Below the pieces are notes generated by a model. That model was not told the DNA's origin, did not search any database, and worked only from the letters and a program-made list of their open reading frames with translations. DNA of 64,000 bases from Pseudanabaenaceae cyanobacterium SKYG29 (GTDB lineage Bacteria > Cyanobacteriota > Cyanobacteriia > Pseudanabaenales > Pseudanabaenaceae): NCBI GenBank assembly GCA_025055675.1, contig JANWWT010000001.1, forward strand, positions 620,001 to 684,000, in the 5' to 3' direction. How positions within the stretch are numbered: the first letter of the stretch is position 1; each line of letters starts with the position of its first letter. The position numbers and the translations under genes are program-made. Below, piece by piece: positions 3,076 through 63,291 of the stretch.

Positions 3076-3303
3076 CTAAACCCGATCGATCCACTGATAC
3101 AGTTCATCAACCTTACTAAATTCCAGTAATGCTTCTGCTAGTTCTTCTAAGCGATCGATGGGGAGAGATTTAATCTATTCGGAGCGATCGGGGGCGATGC
3201 TACCAAACTTGCGGGAAATAAGTCTCAGCAACAAGTGTGCCCCCCCTTCTTGCCTGCCCTCTTGGTACACCCTAGGTTGCCGTAGATCATCTAATGTAAA
3301 CAT
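3076..3303 (-). pseudogene. Remnant of an Rpn/PD-(D/E)XK family protein, DUF4351 C-terminal end
   Basis: Translated on the minus strand from ATG at 3303, the frame reads VYQEGRQEGGAHLLLRLISR then KFGSIAPDRSE, hits TAG at 3175-3177, and continues in the same frame with SLPIDRLEELAEALLEFS and DELYQWI to a stop at 3076. The QEGRQEG linker followed by RxFG...L..LxxLxEALLxF is the typical C-terminal tail (DUF4351) of cyanobacterial Rpn-family putative transposases/nucleases. The N-terminal nuclease domain is absent and an internal stop is present, so I call it a decayed fragment. AGGAGA-type sequence lies just upstream of the ATG, next to a 24-bp dispersed repeat copy. Confidence 0.7.
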
Positions 3304-3317
3304 CCTCTCTATCTCCT

Positions 3318-3343
3318 CGTTCGGCGAGACTCACGAGCCGCCC
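3318..3343 (-). repeat. Diverged copy of the 24-bp dispersed repeat
   Basis: The sequence around GGCGAGACTCACGAGCCGCC aligns over its length with the unit seen as a perfect triple array at 48034-48104 (GGTGAGACTCGCGAACCGC), with a few substitutions. It lies intergenically, directly upstream of the DUF4351 remnant. Confidence 0.6.
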
Positions 3344-3508
3344 TGCTCAACCGTGGAAATTTGTACAATAAAATTGCCTTAATAAATTACAGTATAACCT
3401 CTGCTTCTGAAAGCGCTCGAATCTCATCACCTCCTCGGCTTTGCAAGTAGTTAAGCGCAACATCCCAAACTCTGGAGAGGTTCATCACTCCAATAAAAGT
3501 GCTGTATG

Positions 3509-7625: not shown

Positions 7626-8104
7626 AGGATTTAAGTATTCTGGTCAGTCAAATTGAAGAAGAGCTACAATTATTACAACGGACCATCAGTCGCATTCAAT
7701 CCCAAGTTAAGAAGGCTAAAACTACTAATGATGAGGACTATTGGCACGCTGTAGCCGCTAATCTAGTGAGTTTCTATACTGGCATGGAAAATATATTTAA
7801 GTTGATTGCTAATAACCTCGATAACTACTTGCCACAGGGAGCAGACTGGCATATTCAATTATTACGGCAAATGCAAACAGGCAATAGCTACCGCCCTGCT
7901 GTAATTCAATCAGAAACATTGCAGTTAATTAGTGAATATCGATCATTCCGCCATGTATTTATGAACAACTATGCTCTGAATCTAGACAGCACTAAACTAG
8001 ACCTGCTCGCACAAAAACTACCCGTAACCTATGATCACTTACACAAGGATATGAAAAGTTTTGCAGAGATTATCCTAAAAATAAATGGAGAACTACAGTC
8101 ATGA
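7622..8104 (+). CDS. HEPN-domain HepT-like protein, partner of the MNT enzyme
   Basis: A 160-residue, mostly helical protein. YRSFRHVFMNNYALNLD (R110 to Y117) occupies the place of the RX4HXY motif of HepT ribonucleases, but the histidine position is Asn (RX4NXY), while the tyrosine that MntA-type enzymes AMPylate is kept. It may therefore be a weak or inactive RNase, or belong to a HepT-like subfamily with a different active site. I start it at ATG 7622, preceded by AAGGGG and overlapping the previous stop, rather than a GTG nine bases upstream. Its own TGA overlaps the ATG of the methyltransferase gene by four bases, so the pair is embedded in the operon. Confidence 0.75.
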   Translation: MKDLSILVSQIEEELQLLQRTISRIQSQVKKAKTTNDEDYWHAVAANLVSFYTGMENIFKLIANNLDNYLPQGADWHIQLLRQMQTGNSYRPAVIQSETLQLISEYRSFRHVFMNNYALNLDSTKLDLLAQKLPVTYDHLHKDMKSFAEIILKINGELQS

Positions 8105-11100
8105 ATAATTCTCCCATCAAAATTGAAGGTAATCTGATTAGTTTGGAGCTAAATGACCTCAGCACAGCCATCTCCCAAAAAGGCGATGAAATTGCCCTGA
8201 CATGGTCGATCGCTAAGGCGCAGTGGCAGAAATTTCAGTACTACCGTCAGCATGCTAAAGAAGACGATACAGGTACAAGCATGACCAGGGAGCAATGGGC
8301 AATTCCGCTGTTGACTAATCTTGGATTTAACCTCAGCTATCAGCGGCAACCAGAAGTTATTGATAATCTCTCTTTTCCTATTTCCCATCTCAGTATGTCT
8401 GCTCCTATCCACATTGTTAGCTATCGTGTGGGATTAGAACAGCGACAGCATAAATTTTCTCCCCATACTCTCCTGCAGGAATACTTAAATCGTAAGGAAG
8501 AATATCTGTGGGGTATAGTGACTAATGGTTTACAGTGGCGGTTATTGCGAGATTCTTCTTTAATGACCAGGCTTACCTACATTGAGTTTGATTTAGAGTC
8601 AATTCTAGATAATGAAAACTACAGAGATTTTCAATATTTTTATCTGCTGTGCCACAGTTCTGTATTCCCTAGTGATGTTAGCAATCCTCATCAATGTAAG
8701 CTAGAGGAGTATCACCAAAAGTCTATTCAGGAAGGACAGAGGGTTAGGGATAGATTAAGGGATGGCGTAGAAAAAGCGATCGTCTGTCTAGCTAATGGTT
8801 TTTTACAGTATCCCAGGAATACGCATTTGCAATCTATGGATGCTAGGCAACTTTATCGCTTGCTTTTGCTATTAATTTATAGACTGTTATTTTTAATGAC
8901 AGCAGAAAGTAGAAATATTTTGCAACTCCAGGATGTGCCCGACGGTCAGCGAGACTCCCGAGCCGAGGAACTGCGGCAAATATATCAGGAATTCTACAGT
9001 ATAGAAAGATTACGTTGTCTTGCCGATCGTTATATTTCTCCTAGGGAAGGTTACACGGACCTGTGGCAAAAACTCTGTGTTACTTTCGCTCTATTCAATG
9101 AGCAGGCACATGGCAGTATGCTGGGATTATCTCCCCTCAACGGTGGTTTGTTTAACTCTCAAGTATTACAAGATTTGGAGACAGCACGTATAGATAACCA
9201 TGATTTACTAACTGCTATTCGTTACTTATCACTTTATGACCATAACAACCGTAAACAAAGGGTAAATTATGCTGCTATTGATGTAGAAGAGCTAGGTAGT
9301 GTTTATGAAAGTTTGTTGGATTTCGCACCTGTTATTGTTTCGTTCGACGAGGCTCCCGAGTCGGAGGTAGGAGGCAAAAAAGAGTTTAGATTTATTCATG
9401 GTACGGAGCGTAAAAGTACAGGTAGTTACTATACTCCGTCAGCTTTGGTAGCTCAGGTAATTAAACACACCTTAGAACCGATCGTGCAAAGTATATTAGC
9501 CAGTGAGGAATCTGGGATAGACTTAGGGAACAGCAGAGGGTTACGGGCGGAAATCTCCCAGAGAGTATCTACACTTTCTGAGAGTAGCTCAGGGATGACT
9601 GAAGGAGTTGGAAACACACCTGATTCTAGCAATGGGAGTGGAACTAGCCCAATCACAAGCGATCGCTCCCCTTCTCAAACAGAGCGAAATAGTAGGGAAG
9701 ATGCTACGCGCACTCATCAGAGCAATACAAGCGAAATTAGACCAGCGTCACTAAAGGATACTCCCCACTCCCACAAGATACAAAAGCTGTTGTCTCTCAA
9801 AATTTGCGATCCTGCCTGTGGCTCAGGACATTTTTTGTTAGCTGCTGCTCGCTACTTGGGTAAGGAAATTGCTAAGTTGGAAACAGGGGAGGATGAACCA
9901 AATCCCTTAATCTTACGGCGTGCTACCCGATCGGTAATTCAACACTGTATTTATGGGGTCGATATAAATCCCTTAGCTGTTGATTTGTGTAAAGTTGCTC
10001 TTTGGATTGAGGGATTTTGCGGCGGCGTTCCTCTCAACTTTCTGGATCATAGAATTAAGTGCGGTAATTCTCTAGTAGGTGTATTTGATTTAGAAGTTCT
10101 TAAGGAAGGTATTCCTGACTCTGCTTACGAAGCTGTTACAGGTGATGATAAGAGTGTAGTAAAATCAATTAAAAAAGATAATAAAAATGAGCGAACTGGT
10201 CAGCTTTCTCTGCTAGAGACGTGGGATTACACAGAAGACCGATCGGAATTTGCTAGAGAATGGCAAGAACTAGGAGAAATTCCCGAAGAAACTGCCGAGG
10301 CAGTGCAACACAAACAAAAGTATTATCAGACCATTCGCAATTCGGATAAATGGTGTAAAGATCGGGCAGCTTGTAATTTGTGGACAGCAGCATTTTTCAC
10401 ACCGCTTACATCAGAAAATAGACATTTAGTGCCTACTACCAAATCTATAGCTAGGGTTTTAGGAAGTATAAACAGCCACGACAATCCCCACTCCCCAATT
10501 ACCCAAAATGCCGACAGGCTTGCCGAAGAACTCAAATTCTTTCACTGGGCATTAGAATTTCCTGAAGTGTTTGAGCAGGGGGGCTTTGATTGCGTCATAG
10601 GTAACCCACCTTGGGAAAGAATTAAACTGCAAGAGAAAGAATTTTTTGCTTCTAGGGATATAGAAATCGCTGAGGCACAAAATAAAGCAGAAAGAGAAAA
10701 ATTGATTAAAACTCTACCAGAAAGAAAACCACAATTGGCGAAAGAATGGGAGAATGCTAAACGGATTGCTGAGAATCAAAGTATTTTTATTCGGGGTTCA
10801 GAACGATTCCCTTTAACCTCTAGGGGAGACATTAACACCTATGCCGTATTTTCTGAACTTGCCCGCAATTTGATTAACCCTCACGGTAGAGCAGGACTGA
10901 TTGTACCTACAGGCATTGCCACTGACGATACTTGTAAATTCTTCTTTGGTAATCTTATCCAGCACAGCCACCTAGTTTGTTTGTTCGATTTTGAGAATAG
11001 AGAAATTTTTCCTGCTGTTCACCGTAGCTATAAGTTTTCAATTCTAGTAACTTCTAAATCTATTTCTCTTGGCTGTTTTGCCTTCTTTCTCACTCAGCCG

Positions 11101-12264
11101 CAACAAATAGAGGCACCAAACCGCACTTTTACTCTTTCTGCTAAAGATATTGCCCTAATGAATCCCAATACTCTGACCTGTCCTGTTTTCCGTACCAAAC
11201 AAGATGCGGAACTCACCAAAAAAATCTATCAGCGAGTACCTGTCTTAGAAAATGAACGGACGGGCGAAAATCCATGGGGTATTTCTTTTATGACAATGTT
11301 TCATATGTCCAATGATAGTCATTTGTTTTTTGGGCGTAAAGAAAACGACTCCCTACTCCCCCTCTATGAAGCTAAACTGTTCCATCAGTACGACCATCGC
11401 TGGGCAACTTACATCAATAACACAGATACCCGTGATCTCACAGAGGCAGAAAAACAAGACCCCAACTACACCATCACGCCCCGCTACTGGGTAAGTCGCA
11501 CCGAAGTAGAAAACCGCCTCGCTGGCAAATGGAATAAACAATGGTTGATAGGTTATAGGCGAATCAGTAACACAACTAACGAAAGAACTTTTATCTCTTG
11601 TATGTTACCGAAAGCTGGATTTGGAGACAATGTATTCTTAATTTTACCTAGTATAGACAATAATATTCTAGTCAGTTGCTTTTATGGATGTCTCAATAGT
11701 CTTCCTCTAGATTTCATTGCTAGGCAAAAAATGGGTGGAACTAACCTCAATTTCTTCATTGTCAAGCAACTTCCTGTACTTCCCCCCACAGCATACACCT
11801 CTACTGATATAGAATGCATTGTTCCCCGTGTTTTTGAGTTGGTCTATACCGCCTATGACCTCAAGCCTTTTGCTGATGACCTGTGGCGTTCTGTTCAATC
11901 GGAGCCAAAACTAGTGCAAGCTCTTTTGCAGCAATGGTCAATGAATCATGCTACTACTATTGAGCTATCTCCATCAGAGCAGGAATTCCCTTTACCCCCC
12001 TTCCGTTGGGACACTGAACGGCGTGCTCTGCTCCGTGCTGAACTGGATGCTTACTATGCCTATCTCTACGGTCTCACCCGTGATGAATTGCGCTACATTC
12101 TCGACCCTGCTGATGTTTATGGGGCAGATTTTCCCAGCGAAACTTTTAGAGTCCTCAAAGAAAAGGAAATTAAACAATATGGTGAATACCGCACTCGTTG
12201 CCTAGTCCTTGAAGCATGGGATAGAATGAACCTCAGCAAACACCAATCTGTAATCGCCAATTAG
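8101..12264 (+). CDS. Large Eco57I/PglX-class DNA N6-adenine methyltransferase, DISARM/BREX-like
   Basis: A 1387-residue protein. Residues 1-400 resemble the N-terminal part of type IIG/PglX-like enzymes. STGSYYTPSALVAQVIKHTL (about 440) is the usual lead-in to the methylase; motif I is CDPACGSGHFLLAAARYLG (about 570), and motif IV is VIGNPPWERIKL (about 835), the NPPW form that indicates adenine-N6 methylation. The C-terminal 400 residues probably recognise the target. The family marks host DNA so that a linked helicase/nuclease machine spares it. Oddities: a Ser/Thr-rich linker of about 80 residues (480-560) splits the lead-in from motif I, and two degenerate 24-bp repeat copies lie in frame (8942-8967, 9340-9367). 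No PD-(D/E)XK motif is obvious. Confidence 0.82.
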   Translation: MNNSPIKIEGNLISLELNDLSTAISQKGDEIALTWSIAKAQWQKFQYYRQHAKEDDTGTSMTREQWAIPLLTNLGFNLSYQRQPEVIDNLSFPISHLSMSAPIHIVSYRVGLEQRQHKFSPHTLLQEYLNRKEEYLWGIVTNGLQWRLLRDSSLMTRLTYIEFDLESILDNENYRDFQYFYLLCHSSVFPSDVSNPHQCKLEEYHQKSIQEGQRVRDRLRDGVEKAIVCLANGFLQYPRNTHLQSMDARQLYRLLLLLIYRLLFLMTAESRNILQLQDVPDGQRDSRAEELRQIYQEFYSIERLRCLADRYISPREGYTDLWQKLCVTFALFNEQAHGSMLGLSPLNGGLFNSQVLQDLETARIDNHDLLTAIRYLSLYDHNNRKQRVNYAAIDVEELGSVYESLLDFAPVIVSFDEAPESEVGGKKEFRFIHGTERKSTGSYYTPSALVAQVIKHTLEPIVQSILASEESGIDLGNSRGLRAEISQRVSTLSESSSGMTEGVGNTPDSSNGSGTSPITSDRSPSQTERNSREDATRTHQSNTSEIRPASLKDTPHSHKIQKLLSLKICDPACGSGHFLLAAARYLGKEIAKLETGEDEPNPLILRRATRSVIQHCIYGVDINPLAVDLCKVALWIEGFCGGVPLNFLDHRIKCGNSLVGVFDLEVLKEGIPDSAYEAVTGDDKSVVKSIKKDNKNERTGQLSLLETWDYTEDRSEFAREWQELGEIPEETAEAVQHKQKYYQTIRNSDKWCKDRAACNLWTAAFFTPLTSENRHLVPTTKSIARVLGSINSHDNPHSPITQNADRLAEELKFFHWALEFPEVFEQGGFDCVIGNPPWERIKLQEKEFFASRDIEIAEAQNKAEREKLIKTLPERKPQLAKEWENAKRIAENQSIFIRGSERFPLTSRGDINTYAVFSELARNLINPHGRAGLIVPTGIATDDTCKFFFGNLIQHSHLVCLFDFENREIFPAVHRSYKFSILVTSKSISLGCFAFFLTQPQQIEAPNRTFTLSAKDIALMNPNTLTCPVFRTKQDAELTKKIYQRVPVLENERTGENPWGISFMTMFHMSNDSHLFFGRKENDSLLPLYEAKLFHQYDHRWATYINNTDTRDLTEAEKQDPNYTITPRYWVSRTEVENRLAGKWNKQWLIGYRRISNTTNERTFISCMLPKAGFGDNVFLILPSIDNNILVSCFYGCLNSLPLDFIARQKMGGTNLNFFIVKQLPVLPPTAYTSTDIECIVPRVFELVYTAYDLKPFADDLWRSVQSEPKLVQALLQQWSMNHATTIELSPSEQEFPLPPFRWDTERRALLRAELDAYYAYLYGLTRDELRYILDPADVYGADFPSETFRVLKEKEIKQYGEYRTRCLVLEAWDRMNLSKHQSVIAN
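8942..8967 (-). repeat. Degenerate 24-bp dispersed repeat inside the methyltransferase gene
   Basis: CAGCGAGACTCCCGAGCCGA aligns with GGTGAGACTCGCGAACCG of the perfect copies. It reads in frame as GQRDSRAE near residue 280 of the methyltransferase. Confidence 0.5.
9340..9367 (-). repeat. Second degenerate 24-bp repeat inside the methyltransferase gene
   Basis: TTCGACGAGGCTCCCGAGTC aligns with TCGGTGAGACTCGCGAAC with several changes. It reads in frame as FDEAPESEV near residue 415. It is the weakest member of the family here. Confidence 0.4.
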
Positions 12265-18328: not shown

Positions 18329-18650
18329 ATGGCTGTCAGACAAGGTAGAAGGCAGCTCCTAGCGCCGAATTGGGGCATCATTACCAATGGTACCCATATC
18401 CAATTATTCAGGAAGCACAGCAAAGTTGTTTTCCCCGCAACAGTCTGCTTGGAATTGACGACAGAAAACGTAGATAAAGTAGTATCTTTGATCAAAGATA
18501 AGATGGATAATACTCCTCGTGCTCTGACTGTCGTAGTTTACCAATAAGACTGTAACAGAGTTAAGAAATTTAGCCAAAGCCAGGGGCATTGCTGATGTTA
18601 GCAGGATGAAAAAAGAGGAGTTAATCAAGTTGCTGCAACAGACTGATTAG
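18329..18650 (+). pseudogene. Decayed ParA-like ATPase with restriction-type N-domain and Rho_N end (internal deletion)
   Basis: The first piece reads GRRQLLAPNWGIITNGTHIQ then LFRKHSKVVFPATVCLELTT and ends PRALTVVVYQ followed by TAA at 18545-18547. In intact cyanobacterial relatives as I remember them, the tract ALTVxVY runs straight into the P-loop NNKGGVGKTT, which is missing here. The second piece, in another frame at 18549-18650, reads TVTELRNLAKARGIADVSRM and KKEELIKLLQQ, a Rho_N-type SAP-like domain. The simplest reading is one gene that lost its ATPase core. It borders the right end of the defence block, and its tail overlaps the end of the convergent GTPase gene by 26 bases. Confidence 0.55.
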
Positions 18651-19698
18651 TTAGGATGTCCTCGATCGTTTTTGTCCAATAACTGGGTAATTCTGGTTCT
18701 AGGTAGGCAGAGAGGTTAGAGCGAATAGTTTCCCACAGCTGGGGAGTCAGGGGTTGCTGAGATGACCAGGCTTGGATTGCTCCTACCAACAGAGCTAAAC
18801 TGTCGAGAACAGCCAGGCGTAACCGATCGGTGTTAAGCAGAAAGTGGTTATCCTCTGCCAGCCAGTACCAGCCCCTTGAGGGCAATATTTGGAGGAGTTG
18901 GTGGGTTTCCTGTCCAGCCAGAGAGCGCCCATAGTAGAGCTGATGGAGTTCTCCTAGAGCAATTGCCAGTAAGCCAGGGATAAAAGGACTGCGGCGGCTC
19001 GTGCTACCAGATTCGGCAATCGATCGGATAGTGGGTGTGACGATACCAACTAGGGTAGACAGGGAAACCTGCTTACGTTTTTGCCGTTCCTGCCAGCGAC
19101 TGCCTAGCAATTTCTCTAGTTCTGCCTTGAGGTCTTCTATACCCCGCAGGTCTAGCTGTACTGACAAGTCCAACTCAGGGTCAAAGCCAAAGGTACAGGT
19201 AGGGAAAATCCGCTCAATCCCCAGCGCCTGCCGCCATTGCTCCATGACCCGATCGAGGACAAAGGGTTGCCATTTGTCGTACTGATCAATTTTGTTGAGG
19301 ACGACCACTACTCTAGGACATAACTCCCGTAGGCGATCGAGATGTTGTCGTTGCCGCCCGTCCGCCGAACCCGCTACTACAAAAATACCAACATCAATAG
19401 GGGGCAGTTGCCAATCAGAGTTGTGGAGATAATCCAAGCCAGGGGTATCAATCAGACAGAGATAGGGATTGAGTTGCCAGCGTTCCAGGGTTTGGGTCAC
19501 GCCCGATTCCGCCCGCACCTTGAAAGGGGAGTTTTTGCGTGCCTTGCCCAGCAGAGCATTGAGTAAAGAACTTTTACCCGTGCTCACCTTGCCCATGACC
19601 AGGAGATGGAGGGGTAGCACTCGGTCGGCAAGGCTCTCGATTCGACCGTTGTTAGTCAATTCATGCCCAGGGGAGAAAAATTGTGGCAAGTCGTTCAT
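18625..19698 (-). CDS. Dynamin/Era-like GTPase of unknown role
   Basis: A 357-residue protein with an N-terminal TRAFAC-class GTPase domain: P-loop GKVSTGKS (residues 36-43), G3 DTPG (84-87) and G4 NKID (135-138). After about residue 190 comes a helical region with a hydrophobic stretch (FIPGLLAIALGELHQLYYG) that may touch the membrane. The long C-terminal half is typical of cyanobacterial GTPases of the YeeP/Era-like group, whose function is not established. Transcribed away from the rhomboid gene with 69 bases between starts. Its stop lies inside the neighbouring decayed Rho_N fragment, so its own end is where the island meets the core genome. Confidence 0.8.
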   Translation of the reverse strand: MNDLPQFFSPGHELTNNGRIESLADRVLPLHLLVMGKVSTGKSSLLNALLGKARKNSPFKVRAESGVTQTLERWQLNPYLCLIDTPGLDYLHNSDWQLPPIDVGIFVVAGSADGRQRQHLDRLRELCPRVVVVLNKIDQYDKWQPFVLDRVMEQWRQALGIERIFPTCTFGFDPELDLSVQLDLRGIEDLKAELEKLLGSRWQERQKRKQVSLSTLVGIVTPTIRSIAESGSTSRRSPFIPGLLAIALGELHQLYYGRSLAGQETHQLLQILPSRGWYWLAEDNHFLLNTDRLRLAVLDSLALLVGAIQAWSSQQPLTPQLWETIRSNLSAYLEPELPSYWTKTIEDILTNQSVAAT

Positions 19699-25755: not shown

Positions 25756-26754
25756 ATGTACGCCGTAGTGATGACAGGGATAGGAGAGCCAGAGGTTTTA
25801 CAATACCAGTCTGTGCCCGATCCGATTATTAAATCGCCGACAGAAATGTTGGTAAAGTTAAAAGCAGCAAGTGTGAATCCCATTGATACTAAACTGCGGC
25901 AGCGGGGCAATTTCTATAAACAAATACCAGCAATTTTAGGCTGTGACGGGGCAGGTATTGTGGAAGCCGTAGGTAGTGCTGTCACCAAATTTAAGGTGGG
26001 AGATGCTGTCTATTTTTGCCATGGCGGGCTGGGTAAACACCAGGGCAACTATGCGGAATACACCACGATCGAGGAGGATTTAGCCGCCCTCAAACCTACT
26101 TCTCTCTCTTTTGTAGAAGCTGCAGCAGCTCCCCTAGTCCTAATCACAGCTTGGGAGGCTTTGTACGATCGGGCCCGTTTGGCGGACAACAAGAAAGTCC
26201 TCATCCATGGTGGGGCAGGGGGAGTTGGTCACATGGCAATTCAATTGGCAAAGCACAAGGATGCTATGGTTGCTACTACTGTCAGTTCCCAGGAAAAAGC
26301 AGAATTTTGTCTATCTCTATGTCCAGATGTCTATCCCATTTTTTACAAACAGAGGGATTTCGTGGCAGCAACTATGCAATGGACAAATGGGGAAGGTGTA
26401 GCGGTTGCCTTTGATACGGTGGGGGGCAAGGTACTGGAGCAAACCTTTGCGGCAGTGGAAATCTACGGTGATGTCGTGACGATTTTAGCCCCTGATGCTG
26501 ACACGAACTGGAAGGTAGCAAGGGATAGAAATTTGCGTATTAGTTTAGAGTTGATGTTGACACCTATGCTGCAAGAAAGACGGGATTTACAAAAACGCCA
26601 AGTGCAGATTTTAGAACAAGCCCGATCGTTATTTGACAGTGGTAAGCTTACAGTCAAGGTAGGAGAACAGCTACCCCTCAAGGAGGCGGCACAGGCTCAT
26701 GCTCTTCTGGCTGGGGGTAAGGTAAAGGGTAAAGTAGTGCTAATTCCTAACTAG
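25756..26754 (+). CDS. Zinc-independent quinone oxidoreductase/alcohol dehydrogenase-like MDR protein
   Basis: A 332-residue medium-chain dehydrogenase/reductase. GROES-like N-domain (ILGCDGAGIVEAVGSAVTKF) and Rossmann domain with VLIHGGAGGVGHMAIQLAK, the NADPH-binding AxxGGVG form of the quinone oxidoreductase (zeta-crystallin) branch. Catalytic zinc ligands are not evident. Likely an NADPH-dependent reductase of quinones or enals. AGGGAGGGG precedes ATG. Its end overlaps the convergent cca gene by 8 bases. The 209-base spacer upstream of it holds only a small TAGCC-CGAA-GGCTA hairpin near 25677. Confidence 0.88.
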   Translation: MYAVVMTGIGEPEVLQYQSVPDPIIKSPTEMLVKLKAASVNPIDTKLRQRGNFYKQIPAILGCDGAGIVEAVGSAVTKFKVGDAVYFCHGGLGKHQGNYAEYTTIEEDLAALKPTSLSFVEAAAAPLVLITAWEALYDRARLADNKKVLIHGGAGGVGHMAIQLAKHKDAMVATTVSSQEKAEFCLSLCPDVYPIFYKQRDFVAATMQWTNGEGVAVAFDTVGGKVLEQTFAAVEIYGDVVTILAPDADTNWKVARDRNLRISLELMLTPMLQERRDLQKRQVQILEQARSLFDSGKLTVKVGEQLPLKEAAQAHALLAGGKVKGKVVLIPN

Positions 26755-27970
26755 TGCTTTGCCACCAGGTTTTGGCAAACTCCAGGGCTTGTTCCCGATC
26801 GTTAACTATTTGCAGAATCTGGGCTTCCCGAATAGCGATGAGGAGTTGTCCCAGGCGGGGCCCTGGTTTGATAGCCAGGAATTGTTGTAGGTCGTCCCCA
26901 GTTACCAAAGTAGCAGGGTGGGCAATGGGGTCATGGGGATTTAACCACCGATCGAGCCACAGATCACTGACAGGGATGCCATCAGCTCTAGCAAGGGCAA
27001 ATAGGGCGGGCAACATCTCTCCCACATGGCTAAACAGGTAGTATTGCTCGAGGGGAGAATTTTCCGCCGAGGGGAGCTGGGGCAGGTAGCGCAACAGAGT
27101 AGTAATCCATTTTTGTTCCTGGCGGCTTAAGCCCAAAAAATCCCACATACTGGCACTGGGCACAAGAGCAGCATACTTGAGAGTTAAATTGACTATCGCT
27201 TGGCAAAAATAATTCTGCAGGGGGTAACGCGCCAGAATTTGCCCGATAGTCGGAGCAAGGCGACAAAACCGATCGAGGCGCAATTTAGTTGAGGGCAACC
27301 AGGGGGAGAAAATTTGGTCTTCCAGGCAGGTAAGCAACCAGTCGCTATCGCTCTGCAGTAAGTAGGTCAGTTCCATCCTGATGCGCTCGATCGCTACCTG
27401 GGGTAGAAGAGGGGCTAACTGTTTGATAGTCTGATGCGTCCAGGGTTCGATGGTGAAGTTGAGTTGGGCAGCCTGACGGTAGGCACGCAAAATGCGCAGC
27501 GGATCAGCGGCAATATTTTCCGGCGAGACCATCCTCACTATTTTCTGCTGCAGGTCACCTATGCCATCGTGGGGGTCAATAATTTCCCCAGGACGGTGAA
27601 CAGGTACAGCCATTGCATTCATACAAAAATCCCGCTGGCGGAGGTCGTCTAGTAGAGTTGCCCCTACTTGCTTGGCAAAATCTAGGTTCCCCTGGGGCAA
27701 AACCACACGGGCAATTTCCCGTTCCCGATCGAGGAGGACAAAAGGCGCTTTGTATTTGCGAGCAATCTGTCTAGCTGTGTCGATACTCCCTGCCGGTAGG
27801 ACGAAATCTATATCTACTTTAGGGCGCGGTTCGCGAGTCTCACCGAGCGGCTGTCTCCCCAACAGACAATCGCGCACCCACCCCCCAACACAGTAGGTCT
27901 CCCTAGGTAAGTCCGCAGGGTCGATCGGTAAATTTAGGTTGCCAGTGCCAGGGCTAAAGCTGTCTGCCAA
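26747..27970 (-). CDS. cca: CCA tRNA nucleotidyltransferase with an in-frame repeat insertion
   Basis: A 407-residue class II polymerase-beta-fold enzyme. The head has YCVGGWVRDCLLGR, then the catalytic DIDFVLP, then RREFTIN-like RQRDFCMNAMAV and the neck helix DPLRILRAYRQAAQLNF. Such enzymes add or repair the CCA end of tRNA (or only C or A). Between the VRD motif and the catalytic DxD is [13 protein letters not shown], of which eight residues are encoded by a copy of the 24-bp dispersed repeat. No ATG or GTG is available; I accept the TTG at 27970, which overlaps the end of rfbD by 37 bases. Confidence 0.9.
   Translation of the reverse strand: MADSFSPGTGNLNLPIDPADLPRETYCVGGWVRDCLLGRQPLGETREPRPKVDIDFVLPAGSIDTARQIARKYKAPFVLLDREREIARVVLPQGNLDFAKQVGATLLDDLRQRDFCMNAMAVPVHRPGEIIDPHDGIGDLQQKIVRMVSPENIAADPLRILRAYRQAAQLNFTIEPWTHQTIKQLAPLLPQVAIERIRMELTYLLQSDSDWLLTCLEDQIFSPWLPSTKLRLDRFCRLAPTIGQILARYPLQNYFCQAIVNLTLKYAALVPSASMWDFLGLSRQEQKWITTLLRYLPQLPSAENSPLEQYYLFSHVGEMLPALFALARADGIPVSDLWLDRWLNPHDPIAHPATLVTGDDLQQFLAIKPGPRLGQLLIAIREAQILQIVNDREQALEFAKTWWQSTS
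27826..27852 (+). repeat. 24-bp dispersed repeat, single copy inside cca
   Basis: GCGGTTCGCGAGTCTCACCG plus AGCGG on the plus strand is identical to the unit tandemly repeated at 42938-43009. Read on the minus strand in the cca frame it gives LGETREPR. Confidence 0.9.
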
Positions 27971-42219: not shown

Positions 42220-42858
42220 ATGCTGACTTTCGCTATTCCCAAAGGCTCTCTCCTGCAGGACTCTATTCGTCTGTTGCAAACGATCGGTTTGGATTTTTCC
42301 CCGTTTTTGGATGAGTCGAACCGCCTGTTACAGATTACTGATCCCCAGGGCAAAGCCAAGGCGATGTTGGTGCGGGCGCAGGATGTGCCAGTGTATGTGG
42401 AGTATGGAGAAGCTCACCTAGGGATTGCGGGGGAAGATGTGCTGCGAGAGAAAATGCCTAAGGTTGCCCGTCTTTTGGATTTGCAGTTTGGTCACTGTCG
42501 CATGTCCATTGCTGTGCCCCAGAGTAGTCCCTACCGATCGGGTTTGAGTTTGCCCCCCCACAGCCGCATCGCTTCTAAGTCTGTGCGTATCACCCAGGAA
42601 TATTTCGCCAGTATTGACTTGCCTGTAGAAATCATCCCCCTCTACGGCTCAGTGGAGTTAGCGCCAATTACAGGTATGGCAGACGCGATCGTCGATTTGG
42701 TTTCCACAGGACGCACCCTCAGAGAAAATGGCTTGATTGAAATTGAGGTTCTTTTCCACAGTACTGCTCGCTTAATTGCCCATACCCTGAGTTATCGTCT
42801 CGATCGGGAAAACATCAATACCTATGTCGAAAAAATCAGGGAAGTTCTCCCAGCGTGA
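42220..42858 (+). CDS. hisG: ATP phosphoribosyltransferase, short form
   Basis: A 212-residue HisG(S), lacking the C-terminal regulatory domain of the long form. [32 protein letters not shown] and [20 protein letters not shown] are the phosphoribosyl-transferase motifs. It makes phosphoribosyl-ATP, the first step of histidine synthesis. The short form needs HisZ for activity and histidine feedback; hisZ is not in this window. The next gene's start overlaps its end by 35 bases. Confidence 0.95.
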
Positions 42859-44590
42859 GCACAACTCCCTTGCTACAGCTAAACAGAGGAAGACCCTGAG
42901 TGATTACGCCAAGGATGAAATTCTACTGTTTGAACCTGCGGTTCGCGAGTCTCACCGAGCGGCGGTTCGCGAGTCTCACCGAGCGGCGGTTCGCGAGTCT
43001 CACCGAGCGACTGTCCCCTCCCCCGATAGCTTAGCGATCGTCTATGCCTTTCCCAACACCTACAGCGTGGGCATCACTAGCTTGGGCTACCAGATGATCT
43101 GGGCGAGTTTGGCGACCCGATCGGATGTAGCAGTCTATCGCTGGTTTACGGATGTGGCTGATCCCCTGCCCCCTGCCATTGACCTGTGGGGTTTCTCTTT
43201 TAGTTGGGAGTTGGATTTTGTCCATATCCTCAGCGCCCTCAAACAGTTGGGCATCCCCTGGCATAGTCAAGACCGAGACATCTCATGTCCCCTCGTCTTT
43301 GGCGGCGGAGCTGTGTTAACGGCAAATCCCGAACCCTATGCCTCCTGGTTTGATTTCATCCTCCTGGGTGATGGGGAAGAACTAATTCCGGAAATGATAG
43401 CCGCGTTTAAGGAAGTGCGGGGAGCTAGTCGCCAAGCAAAACTGGAACGTCTTGCCCAAGTCCCAGGCATCTACGTGCCCCAGGGCTACCAGGTGGATTA
43501 CCACGATCGGCAGGGCAAGCTAAAAAGTATTACCCCCCTCTCCTCCGCTTTTCCCCCTACCGTAACCAAACGCAGCTATCGCGGTAATGTCCTGTCGGCT
43601 TCCACGGTAGTGACTCCCCACAGCGCCTGGGAAAATATCTACATGGTGGAAGTGGTGCGCAGTTGCCCCGAAATGTGCCGCTTTTGTCTAGCCAGTTACC
43701 TCACCCTCCCTTTTCGCGTTGCCAGCGTGGAAGGCAGTTTGCTCCCAGCGATCGAGCGGGGTTTTGCCGTTACCAACCGTATTGGTCTTCTGGGGGCTTC
43801 CATCACGCAGCATCCAGAATTTGAGCAGGTTTTAGACTACATTGACCAACCCCAATTTGCCGACCTCCGCCTAAGTCTAGCCTCTGTGCGCACTAACACC
43901 CTCACTGTCCGCCTCTGTGAAATTCTCAGTCGCCATGACAGCCGATCGGTCACGATCGCCATAGAAAGCGGGTCAGAACGTCTACGGCAAATCATCAACA
44001 AAAAACTAAGCAATGAGGAAATTAAGCAGGCCGTTGCCAATGCCCAGGCAGGGGGACTCAAAGGGATTAAATTCTACGGTATGGTGGGTGTCCCAGGGGA
44101 AGACATGGCAGATTTAGAAGCAACGATCGGTCTGCTGCGGGAACTGAAAAAAATTGCTCCCCAACTCAAACTCACCCTCGGTTGTAGCACCTTTGTCCCC
44201 AAAGCCCATACCCCTTGGCAGTGGTGCGGTATTGATAGACAGGGCGATAAAAAATTGCAATACCTGCAAAAACACCTGGCTCCCCAGGGCATTGATTTGC
44301 GTCCCGAAAGTTACAAAGACTCCCTGATTCAAGGGTTGCTATCAAGGGGCGACCGGCGCTTGACTCCCCTATTGGAACTGGTGTGGCAATACAGTCAGGG
44401 AGATGTTCCCAGCGATGGTATGTACAAACGTGCCTACAAAGACCTGCAAGCCCAACTCCCCCCCCTTGATTACTACCTCCACGATCGGTGGCAGGAAACA
44501 GACATTTTGCCCTGGCAACATCTACGCACCGCCCTCAGCCCCGAACAACTGCAACGGCATTACCATCAATCTCAAAGCCTGGTAAGTTAG
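42824..44590 (+). CDS. B12-binding/radical-SAM protein (TIGR03960-like) carrying a triple repeat insertion
   Basis: A 588-residue protein. After an N-terminal extension, [20 protein letters not shown] through [19 protein letters not shown] is the cobalamin-binding-like Rossmann domain. The radical-SAM cluster is CPEMCRFC (C-x3-C-x2-C, about 281-288), and [19 protein letters not shown] and [20 protein letters not shown] complete the barrel. Homologues are conserved in cyanobacteria and Firmicutes; the reaction is not established. Residues about 39-62 are three tandem copies of AVRESHRA, encoded by three 24-bp repeats, between the N-terminal helix and the first domain. The start overlaps hisG. 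Confidence 0.88.
42938..43009 (+). repeat. Triple tandem array of the 24-bp dispersed repeat, in frame within a gene
   Basis: Three perfect 24-base copies beginning GCGGTTCGCGAGTCTCACCG at 42938, 42962 and 42986. They encode AVRESHRA three times in the radical-SAM protein. The same unit, inverted, forms the triple array at 48034-48104. Confidence 0.97.
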
Positions 44591-46522: not shown

Positions 46523-48025
46523 ATGGCTCAGGAACGCCCGCCCTTGGAGGAGATGACCTTGCGCCAGTTGCGGAAGATAGCGTCTGAGTATGCGATTTCC
46601 CGTTACAGTCGGATGCGGAAGTCCCAACTACTCAAGGCTATTCAAGCAGCTAAGCTTGGTGATCTCGTACGTAAACATGAACCCCAACCTATGGAAGAGA
46701 GAGAGACTGTGGAAGCAAAGAAGTTTGAATTAGGACAAGCAAGCGCAGCAGTGGTGGCAGAGGCAACGGAGCTGGCAATGGTGGACTGGAATCTGGGTGA
46801 CCTCCCCGCAGGCTACGGGGAACCCCGCATTGTCCTATTACCCCGTGACCCCCAATGGGCTTATGCCTACTGGGATATTCCTGACAGTGCCAAGGAAGCC
46901 TGTCGCCGCCAAGGGGGACAACAACTAGCTCTGCGCATCTACGATGTCACAGACATCAACCTAGACTACCAAATGCCCCATACTGTCCAGGAATATGCCT
47001 GTGATGAGATGGCGAGGGAGTGGTATTTACCCATTCCCATGAGCGATCGGAGCTATGTTGTAGAAATTGGCTATCGCACCAATGATGGGCGTTGGCTGAT
47101 GTTAGCCCGCTCGGCTTCTATTCATGTCCCCCCTGTCTATCCCACCGATTGGACAGAAGACTATTTCCTGTCAATTCCCTGGGAACAAACCCTAATTGGA
47201 CGCACCTTCTTTACCCTCATGCCCAAACAGCGGACAGGTGTACGTCCCGCCGAGGCAACAGCAATCATGGAACAAAGGCAACCCGGTTCTATTTTTGGTT
47301 CCATGCAGATGGCAGAGCAGGCTGTTAGTTCCTTTGCTGTACCTGGGTCTGTGCATATGTCTGGGGTGGGCATGGAAAAAGCGGTGCCTGGTTCCGTGCA
47401 ACTGACTGCCAGTGGTGTAGGGTTAGGTGTACCTGGCTCGATGCAATTGTCCATGTCCGGTGTGGGCTTCGAGACCCGTATCCCTGGTTCTGTACATCTA
47501 TCCATGTCTGGTGTGGGCTTCGAAACCCGCCTACCTGGTTCGGTGCAGCTCTCTATGTCAGGCGTGGGCTTGGAAACCTTTGTCCCTGGGTCTGTACAGT
47601 TAACTGCCAGTGGTCTGGGCTTCCTCTCCCTGTCTGGCGTAGGTCTCTACAGTGAATCGGGTGTGGGTTACCTCACTGCCTCTGGTCTAGGGCTGCTGAC
47701 CCTCTCCGGTATCGGTCTATTCTCTGCAGCTGTGCCCCAACGTCCCCGCCAGTTCTGGTTAGTAGCGGATGCGGAACTGATTGTCTACGGCGCGACGGAA
47801 CCTGACGCCACCGTCACGATCGGTGGGCAGCGTATCGAACTGAACCCCGATGGCACTTTCCGTCACCACATGTCTTTCCAAGACGGTGTAATTGACTATC
47901 CAATTTTGGCGGTGGCAGCAGACGGTGTGCAGACCCGATCGATTCATATGCGGTTTGAGCGTCAGACGTTGGAACGCCGTACTAACACTAAGGAAGAGGC
48001 AATTCCAGAGTGGATTCGGGAATAG
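46523..48025 (+). CDS. Rho_N plus DUF4912 protein with a Pro-Gly-Ser-Val / Ser-Gly-Val-Gly repeat region
   Basis: A 500-residue protein. Residues 8-42 are a Rho_N-type helical module (MTLRQLRKIASEYAISRYSR). Residues about 90-235 are DUF4912 (IVLLPRDPQWAYAYWDIPD, SYVVEIGYRTNDGRWLMLAR). Residues about 247-400 are a degenerate repeat of roughly 17-20 residues, PGSVQLSMSGVGFETR and variants, which thins out to SGVGL-type units. The C-terminal 95 residues are beta-rich, with GATEPDATVTIGGQRIELNP, a bacterial Ig-like fold. Function unknown; Rho_N suggests nucleic-acid or protein binding in the cytoplasm. No signal peptide. An inverted 24-bp repeat array follows the stop by 8 bases. Confidence 0.85.
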   Translation: MAQERPPLEEMTLRQLRKIASEYAISRYSRMRKSQLLKAIQAAKLGDLVRKHEPQPMEERETVEAKKFELGQASAAVVAEATELAMVDWNLGDLPAGYGEPRIVLLPRDPQWAYAYWDIPDSAKEACRRQGGQQLALRIYDVTDINLDYQMPHTVQEYACDEMAREWYLPIPMSDRSYVVEIGYRTNDGRWLMLARSASIHVPPVYPTDWTEDYFLSIPWEQTLIGRTFFTLMPKQRTGVRPAEATAIMEQRQPGSIFGSMQMAEQAVSSFAVPGSVHMSGVGMEKAVPGSVQLTASGVGLGVPGSMQLSMSGVGFETRIPGSVHLSMSGVGFETRLPGSVQLSMSGVGLETFVPGSVQLTASGLGFLSLSGVGLYSESGVGYLTASGLGLLTLSGIGLFSAAVPQRPRQFWLVADAELIVYGATEPDATVTIGGQRIELNPDGTFRHHMSFQDGVIDYPILAVAADGVQTRSIHMRFERQTLERRTNTKEEAIPEWIRE

Positions 48026-48033
48026 TACTGAGC

Positions 48034-48104
48034 CGCTCGGTGAGACTCGCGAACCGCCGCTCGGTGAGACTCGCGAACCGCCGCTCGGTGAGACTCGCGA
48101 ACCT
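48034..48104 (-). repeat. Triple tandem array of the 24-bp dispersed repeat, intergenic
   Basis: Three copies beginning CGCTCGGTGAGACTCGCGAA at 48034, 48058 and 48082, the last lacking its final base. This is the inverted orientation of the 42938-43009 array. It stands 8 bases after the DUF4912 stop codon and ahead of a terminator. Confidence 0.97.
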
Positions 48105-62787: not shown

Positions 62788-63291
62788 ATGGCGAACGACA
62801 AAATTTTGGAAGGGATTACCAGTCTGCTGGAATCAGTGGCGACTATCAAGACTGATTTAGCAGGGGTAAAAGCCGAACTGACAGAGGTCAAACAGGACTT
62901 GGCAGGGGTAAAAGCCGAACTGACAGAGGTCAAACAGGACTTGGCAGGGGTAAAAGCCGAACTGACAGAGGTCAAGCAGGATTTGGCAGGGGTAAAAGCC
63001 GAACTGACAGAGGTCAAGCAGGATTTGGCAGGGGTAAAAGCCGAACTGACAGAGGTCAAGCAGGACTTTGCTACGTTCAAGGTAGAGGTTAACACCAGGC
63101 TTGATCATCTCGATCGGGAAGTAGCAACTCTCAGACAAGACTTTCGCGAATTGCGGATCAGCATGGATGCCTACCAAAAAGCAACGGATAGGGTTAATGG
63201 ACTAGTGACAACGATCGTGGCGGGGGCTTCCGCTGTAGTTATTCTTTCGCCCCTCAGCCGTCTGGTAGTTCGCTCCCTGGGGTTAGATTAA
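62788..63291 (+). CDS. Tandem-repeat coiled-coil protein with C-terminal membrane anchor
   Basis: A 167-residue protein. Five 14-residue repeats, DLAGVKAELTEVKQ, occupy residues 23-92; 14 residues make two heptads, so the array extends one continuous coiled coil. Two more heptads follow (DFATFKVEVNTRLDHLDRE), then a hydrophobic helix near the end (GLVTTIVAGASAVVILSPLS). This resembles DUF1640/CCDC90-like anchored coils, but I do not assign a family. The stop overlaps the end of the convergent deaminase gene by four bases. Confidence 0.75.
   Translation: MANDKILEGITSLLESVATIKTDLAGVKAELTEVKQDLAGVKAELTEVKQDLAGVKAELTEVKQDLAGVKAELTEVKQDLAGVKAELTEVKQDFATFKVEVNTRLDHLDREVATLRQDFRELRISMDAYQKATDRVNGLVTTIVAGASAVVILSPLSRLVVRSLGLD
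62854..63063 (+). repeat. Five near-identical 42-bp tandem repeats inside the coiled-coil gene
   Basis: Each unit carries the 20-mer TTGGCAGGGGTAAAAGCCGA or the same with a one-base change, followed by the CTGACAGAGGTC core. Units differ only at two or three silent positions (GAC/GAT, AAA/AAG), which points to recent expansion by slippage or unequal recombination. Confidence 0.97.

Follow-up and report, generated by a model that had tools for sequence, protein, structure and literature searches.

Why does an essential tRNA enzyme carry eight additional residues directly in front of its catalytic DxD motif, and does this segment belong to the enzyme or to the DNA? The gene in question is situated at 26747..27970 on the minus strand of the 64,000 nt stretch of DNA analysed here (the window), which is part of a genome of 2,561,926 bases in 18 contigs with a completeness of 97.2%. 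With a probability of about 0.85, the segment is one copy of a tiny 24-nt element that is dispersed through the genome of this species, where it occurs as whole units at scattered sites and in a fixed register.

The host gene comprises an intact ORF of 407 aa, the product of which matches PolyA_pol (residues 26-146), an RNA-binding domain (171-227), and tRNA_NucTran2_2 (277-398) in Pfam. Both Pfam and alignment identify the class-II head domain with GG-VRD...DxD, and the solved structural relatives of this cca-type protein are tRNA-processing and CCA-adding enzymes. The interval from DxD to RDF amounts to 55 in this protein as well as in 28 orthologues with a matched motif; L035, whose motif deviates, was left out. 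The genome also encodes another class-II nucleotidyltransferase (G000:C7:28197-29366), which is 31% identical to the cca-type protein and has an interval of 69. Its top NCBIfam match is the A-adding enzyme, with a score of 156.5 bits, which is below the cut-off of 1440 of this 880-residue model. At least two matches were observed in most relatives (57 other genomes searched, with a match in all of them).

A passage of PMC7014341 names the loss of the flexible loop as a hallmark of bacterial CC-adding enzymes, and one of the titles cited by PMC3925840 mentions a CC/A split in Synechocystis. Similar to the bacterial CC-adding enzymes, the protein of the window combines class-II motifs with a short DxD-RRD interval and a separate A-adding-type gene, and the flexible loop between DxD and RRD is absent here too (55 compared to 69 in the A-adding-type paralogue); it differs from these enzymes by the eight repeat-encoded residues right before DxD. 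Due to the loop spacing, the NCBIfam match, and the literature on the CC/A split, it seems to represent the CC-adding partner in a split pair, the probable A-adding-type counterpart being G000:C7:28197-29366. The sequence-only reading of this locus had spoken of a CCA enzyme; for this protein, a CC-adding enzyme is the better assignment. A second nucleotidyltransferase does exist, which comes near to the intact second cca gene that had been named as an objection, but it looks like a partner rather than a spare.

The 24-nt element copy is located at 27827..27850 on the minus strand, where it encodes in frame residues 41-48 (PLGETREP) between GGWVRDCLLGRQ and DID. Its 20-mer core at 27828-27847 has zero mismatches, and this core is matched seven times in the window (in the cca-type gene and at six other places) versus 0 matches in 100 shuffles. 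The tandem arrays at 42938-43018 and 48032-48103 are built from a unit that matches the full 24 nt without any difference. The observation of a repeat copy at this place is confirmed. The placement is ambiguous by approximately 2 nt, and the register given here is that of the other copies. Compared to the coordinates (27826-27852) and the added residues (LGETREPR) given previously, the eight-residue insert itself persists, but its register is shifted by one residue.

An empty counterpart of this site is found in G002, one of two genomes of the same genus (G001 and G002) used for comparison. There, the gene reads GGGGAGACAGCGCC, while the gene of the window shows these flanks separated by 24 nt. 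The empty site is GACAG^CGCC, and the pairwise alignment with G002 reveals a single segment at the cca-type locus that is present only in the genome under study and is exactly 24 nt long. The gene of G001 likewise lacks the insert. In the protein alignment, the spacing from VRD to DxD is identical to that of G002 in 28 out of 29 orthologues (L013-L041, the loci returned from a total of 57 other genomes, each with a match), except for L036 with one additional residue, whereas the gene of the window has eight. No unrelated insert of similar length was found at this position among the 29 orthologues. These observations agree with the earlier statements that the loop from the VRD motif to DxD has received a copy of the repeat, and that other CCA enzymes have only a few residues there. 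The difference is confirmed as an insertion and not a loss.

In the genome under study, a search with the 20-mer and up to three mismatches identified 20 copies, while a 17-mer with one mismatch had zero matches in the 57 relatives. The pattern TCGNYGAGRCTCNCGARYCG, which also covers units of this family with other letters at some positions, yielded 57 matches with two mismatches, compared to 1 match of the reversed control, and 47 compared to 0 with one mismatch; in G002, 6 matches versus 0 were obtained with two mismatches, and the few copies of this genome are located in other genes (an RNase E/G-family gene, a response regulator, and a cobalamin gene). Considering 291 other genomes of the phylum at one mismatch, 280 have no match and 11 have one to three. 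With a slightly wider pattern, 24 stretches of the genome plus the window were found to contain 45 arrays, namely 37 single, 4 double, and 4 triple ones, which amount to 57 copies and share one 24-nt register; this count includes two-mismatch copies in metH, nadB, and pdhB, which may be chance matches. The commonest units are CCGCTCGGTGAGACTCGCGAACCG with 11 copies, and TCGGTCGACGAGGCTCCCGAGGCG and TCGGTCGGCGAGGCTCCCGAGGCG with 7 copies each.

Within the window, a radical SAM protein gene (42824-44590, plus strand) contains close to its N-terminus an in-frame triple tandem array of perfect repeats at 42939..43010 (minus strand; 42938-43018 in the tandem search). A second triple array of perfect repeats is located at 48033..48104 (plus strand; 48032-48103 in the tandem search) with no Pfam-supported gene around. 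A related 24-nt unit at 19621..19644 (plus strand) is situated in frame near the N-terminus of a Pfam-supported GTPase gene (18625-19698, minus strand), for which G002 provides an exact 24-nt empty site. By Pfam and pattern search, two further related units were assigned to an Eco57I-type gene (8101-12264, plus strand), at 8942..8965 and 9340..9363, both on the plus strand. The pattern also detected a related unit outside supported genes at 3317..3340 (plus strand), within a longer duplicated stretch. This stretch of approximately 390 nt occurs twice in the genome with 76% identity, in the window at 3082-3428 and at 1437-1825 of L114 (G000:C1:405000-408100). Since the 24-nt unit is found at the same place in both, only one insertion is required for the two. 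The tandem repeats at 62804-63113 and 47427-47599 of the window, which code for protein and have periods of 42 and 51 nt, are unrelated to the element.

The unit was also considered as an RNA gene or hairpin; this was ruled out, as Rfam reported no family besides tRNAs in 18 loci of the genome and the window, and the unit folds no better than shuffles. A viral, phage or plasmid origin was rejected, as neither of two unit patterns had an exact match in viral_contigs; the 72-nt array had no match in plasmids or phages. At 1507-1530 of L128 (G000:C6:57900-61000), one unit copy occupies the loop of an inverted repeat that resembles a terminator (AAAGCCGCCCT ... AGGGCGGGGCTTT).

Of the 45 arrays, 30 are found in Pfam-supported ORFs, distributed over 25 genes, and 15 are outside supported genes. 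The repeat, previously noticed at one gene only, thus belongs to an element family that is also present in up to 24 other Pfam-supported genes. Host genes, named according to Pfam or NCBIfam matches, include dnaA (two sites), dnaN, cysS, murC, murD, pth, prmC, and pdxA, and furthermore a class-II ribonucleotide reductase gene, cheA, the radical SAM protein gene, the Eco57I-type gene, and an IS605-type tnpB; in case of nadB, metH, a rumA-like gene, and pdhB, the name is our reading of the Pfam hits. The arrays inside ORFs occupy all six combinations of strand and phase (10, 5, and 1 on the same strand; 3, 4, and 7 on the opposite strand), which argues that the DNA unit and not the peptide spreads. 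Selection of the octapeptide itself as a functional tag or linker would fit the location of two thirds of the arrays (30/45) in Pfam-supported ORFs and the predominance of same-strand phase 0 (10/30), but the six combinations specify unrelated peptides, 15 of 45 arrays lie outside supported genes, and relatives manage without the insert in the cca-type gene, so that we regard this explanation as very improbable.

Thirteen sites were compared with G002, and eight of these differ by whole units. The differences amount to 24 nt for the cca-type gene, the GTPase gene, pdxA, murD (where the aligner split the 24 nt as 23+1), dnaA linker b, and ORF149 of L108 (with the gap set a few bases off and more small gaps nearby), and to 48 nt for dnaN and pda c. 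The remaining five sites show no clean whole-unit difference, namely dnaA linker a (a variable linker with a difference of 57 nt), the TgpA N-terminus, the pdhB C-terminus, pda a, and pda b. Most empty sites stem from this one sister genome. In case of the GTPase gene, the placement is unambiguous, and therefore this site is without target duplication.

With respect to the target, family-A arrays are found at CAG^C in 7 out of 15 cases against a background of 0.0044 (binomial p 2e-13, with arrays treated as independent), and CAG^C is present in the empty sites of the cca-type gene and pda c. This preference is limited to family A and to approximately half of its arrays. The HIP1 sequence (GCGATCGC) was not restored by the joined flanks of any of the 57 copies. 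HIP1 itself occurs only 3 times in the window (1-64000), its inner CGATCG 188 times.

Taken together, the empty sites, the dispersal across genes, and the occurrence of all six strand and phase combinations characterize the insert as a frame-preserving mini-insertion element at the DNA level rather than a feature of CCA enzymes. An assembly artefact, or a pseudogene backed by another cca gene, might be suspected from the 18 contigs and the second nucleotidyltransferase. This is hardly credible, since the ORF is intact and conserved (dN/dS 0.11 versus G002), the second gene has the longer spacing with the A-adding model as its best match, and at least two such matches occur in most relatives.

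For the movement of the units, two routes were weighed. They could be mobilized like REP or IS200/IS605 DNA by an HUH (Y1) transposase, with single-strand insertion 3' of CAG and no target duplication. The GTPase site without target duplication, the CAG to the left of 7 of the 15 family-A arrays, and an IS605-type tnpB that harbours copies and has further ones next to it are in agreement with such a route. No match to Y1_Tnp (PF01797) was obtained in the genome, however (0/1, at 97.2% completeness), although the same model was positive in 5 of 14 control genomes; moreover, the units fold no better than shuffles, and the CAG left flank is absent from units of the sister family. We therefore consider this route unlikely. 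The tnpB mentioned is located at 1549-2923 of L120 (G000:C2:202300-206800), and one family-A copy is nested in a copy of the other family at L120 2063.

Alternatively, DNA repair could spread the units by template switching or gene conversion into breaks with one or two bases of homology, slippage giving rise to the tandem arrays. The short placement ambiguity at the cca-type gene, the double and triple arrays, and the negative search for a Y1 transposase speak for repair, while the constant unit and register without partial units at all 8 clean sites, where repair filler is expected to vary in length, and the GTPase site without a shared base speak against it. Repair is a doubtful, though not a negligible, explanation. 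Whichever process applies, the unit is presumably moved in trans, by an enzyme or a repair process.

The consequences for the protein may be slight. An AlphaFold2 model from four sequences is weak (mean pLDDT 71.0, pTM 0.51; the other four models 45-52), and in this model residues 41-52 form the sole internal stretch with a pLDDT below 50, between a helix (30-36) and a strand (55-58) that bears the second D of DxD. Foldseek with the model retrieves CCA-adding enzymes with a query TM of up to 0.65. Comparison of the gene with that of G002, with the insert omitted, gave dN 0.10, dS 0.89, and dN/dS 0.11, values which mostly reflect the time before the insertion. With regard to the earlier claim that the repeat is accepted in an essential active-site region, the intact and conserved ORF stands, whereas acceptance as such is a plausible conclusion from this ORF and the weak structure model: the enzyme plausibly tolerates eight extra residues, with a presumably near-neutral effect.

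Several known systems resemble the element in part. PMC4390886 places the insertion of SDR5, one of the small dispersed repeats known from Nostoc/Anabaena (Elhai et al. 2008), between nucleotides 3 and 4 of HIP1, and cyanobacterial small dispersed repeats are also described in PMC2884548. As portrayed there, SDR5 shares with our element the cyanobacterial host, a size of approximately 20-25 nt, the dispersed and also tandem occurrence, the apparent mobility, and the lack of coding capacity. The 45 arrays of the 24-nt unit correspond to it in size and dispersal, but not in the HIP1 target (0/57 copies; empty cca site as given above), a distinction drawn from the description of SDR5. Rickettsia palindromic elements are depicted in passages of PMC2229807 and PMC3733652 as palindromes of 105-146 bp lying in frame in many conserved protein genes. 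In-frame insertion in such genes is also seen here, in the 30 arrays in Pfam-supported ORFs, but instead of a palindromic stem-loop of 105-146 bp the unit is 24 nt long with no fold above shuffles. REP elements, given as 20-40 bp long with many copies per genome in PMC3733652, are comparable in short unit and copy number. In contrast to REP/RAYT systems, the consensus has neither a GTAG or CGTC tag nor a stem-loop above shuffles, PF01797 is without a match in the genome, and the copies are mostly within genes. The element joins the size and habit of small dispersed repeats with the in-frame colonisation of genes known from Rickettsia palindromic elements and fully corresponds to neither. Our literature search found no account of a 24-nt in-frame cyanobacterial repeat; as the 2008 study of small dispersed repeats was outside its reach, absence from print is not claimed.

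For the 24-nt element, we envisage that whole units are added at scattered sites, singly or as tandem arrays of 48 or 72 nt, with no target duplication detectable beyond an ambiguity of one or two bases. Being divisible by three in length and open in most or all reading frames, each unit would add eight residues and leave the gene unbroken, and due to this property copies can persist even in essential genes if they are located in loops or linkers. In case of the CC-adding enzyme, the unit would have landed at CAG^C, where a turn links the VRD helix to the DxD strand, and it is probably carried there as a disordered loop.

The coding copies provide a collection of naturally occurring eight-residue insertions into essential proteins, one of them beside a catalytic motif, and the element bears on the question of how very small repeats without coding capacity spread. 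Since the unit is short, many copies are identical, and empty sites differ by 24 or 48 nt from a sister without them, the insertion reaction could be followed directly. It is tempting to speculate, though no more than tentatively, that this cyanobacterial genus possesses a dedicated, as yet undescribed activity by which 24-nt units are inserted in a fixed register and with no duplication of the target, one family preferring CAG^C, and that the length of exactly eight codons allowed essential genes to be colonised. If so, these units would be among the smallest frame-preserving mobile elements, and the genome would in effect hold the outcome of a naturally performed eight-residue insertion screen that covers dnaA, dnaN, cysS, murD, and the CC-adding enzyme.
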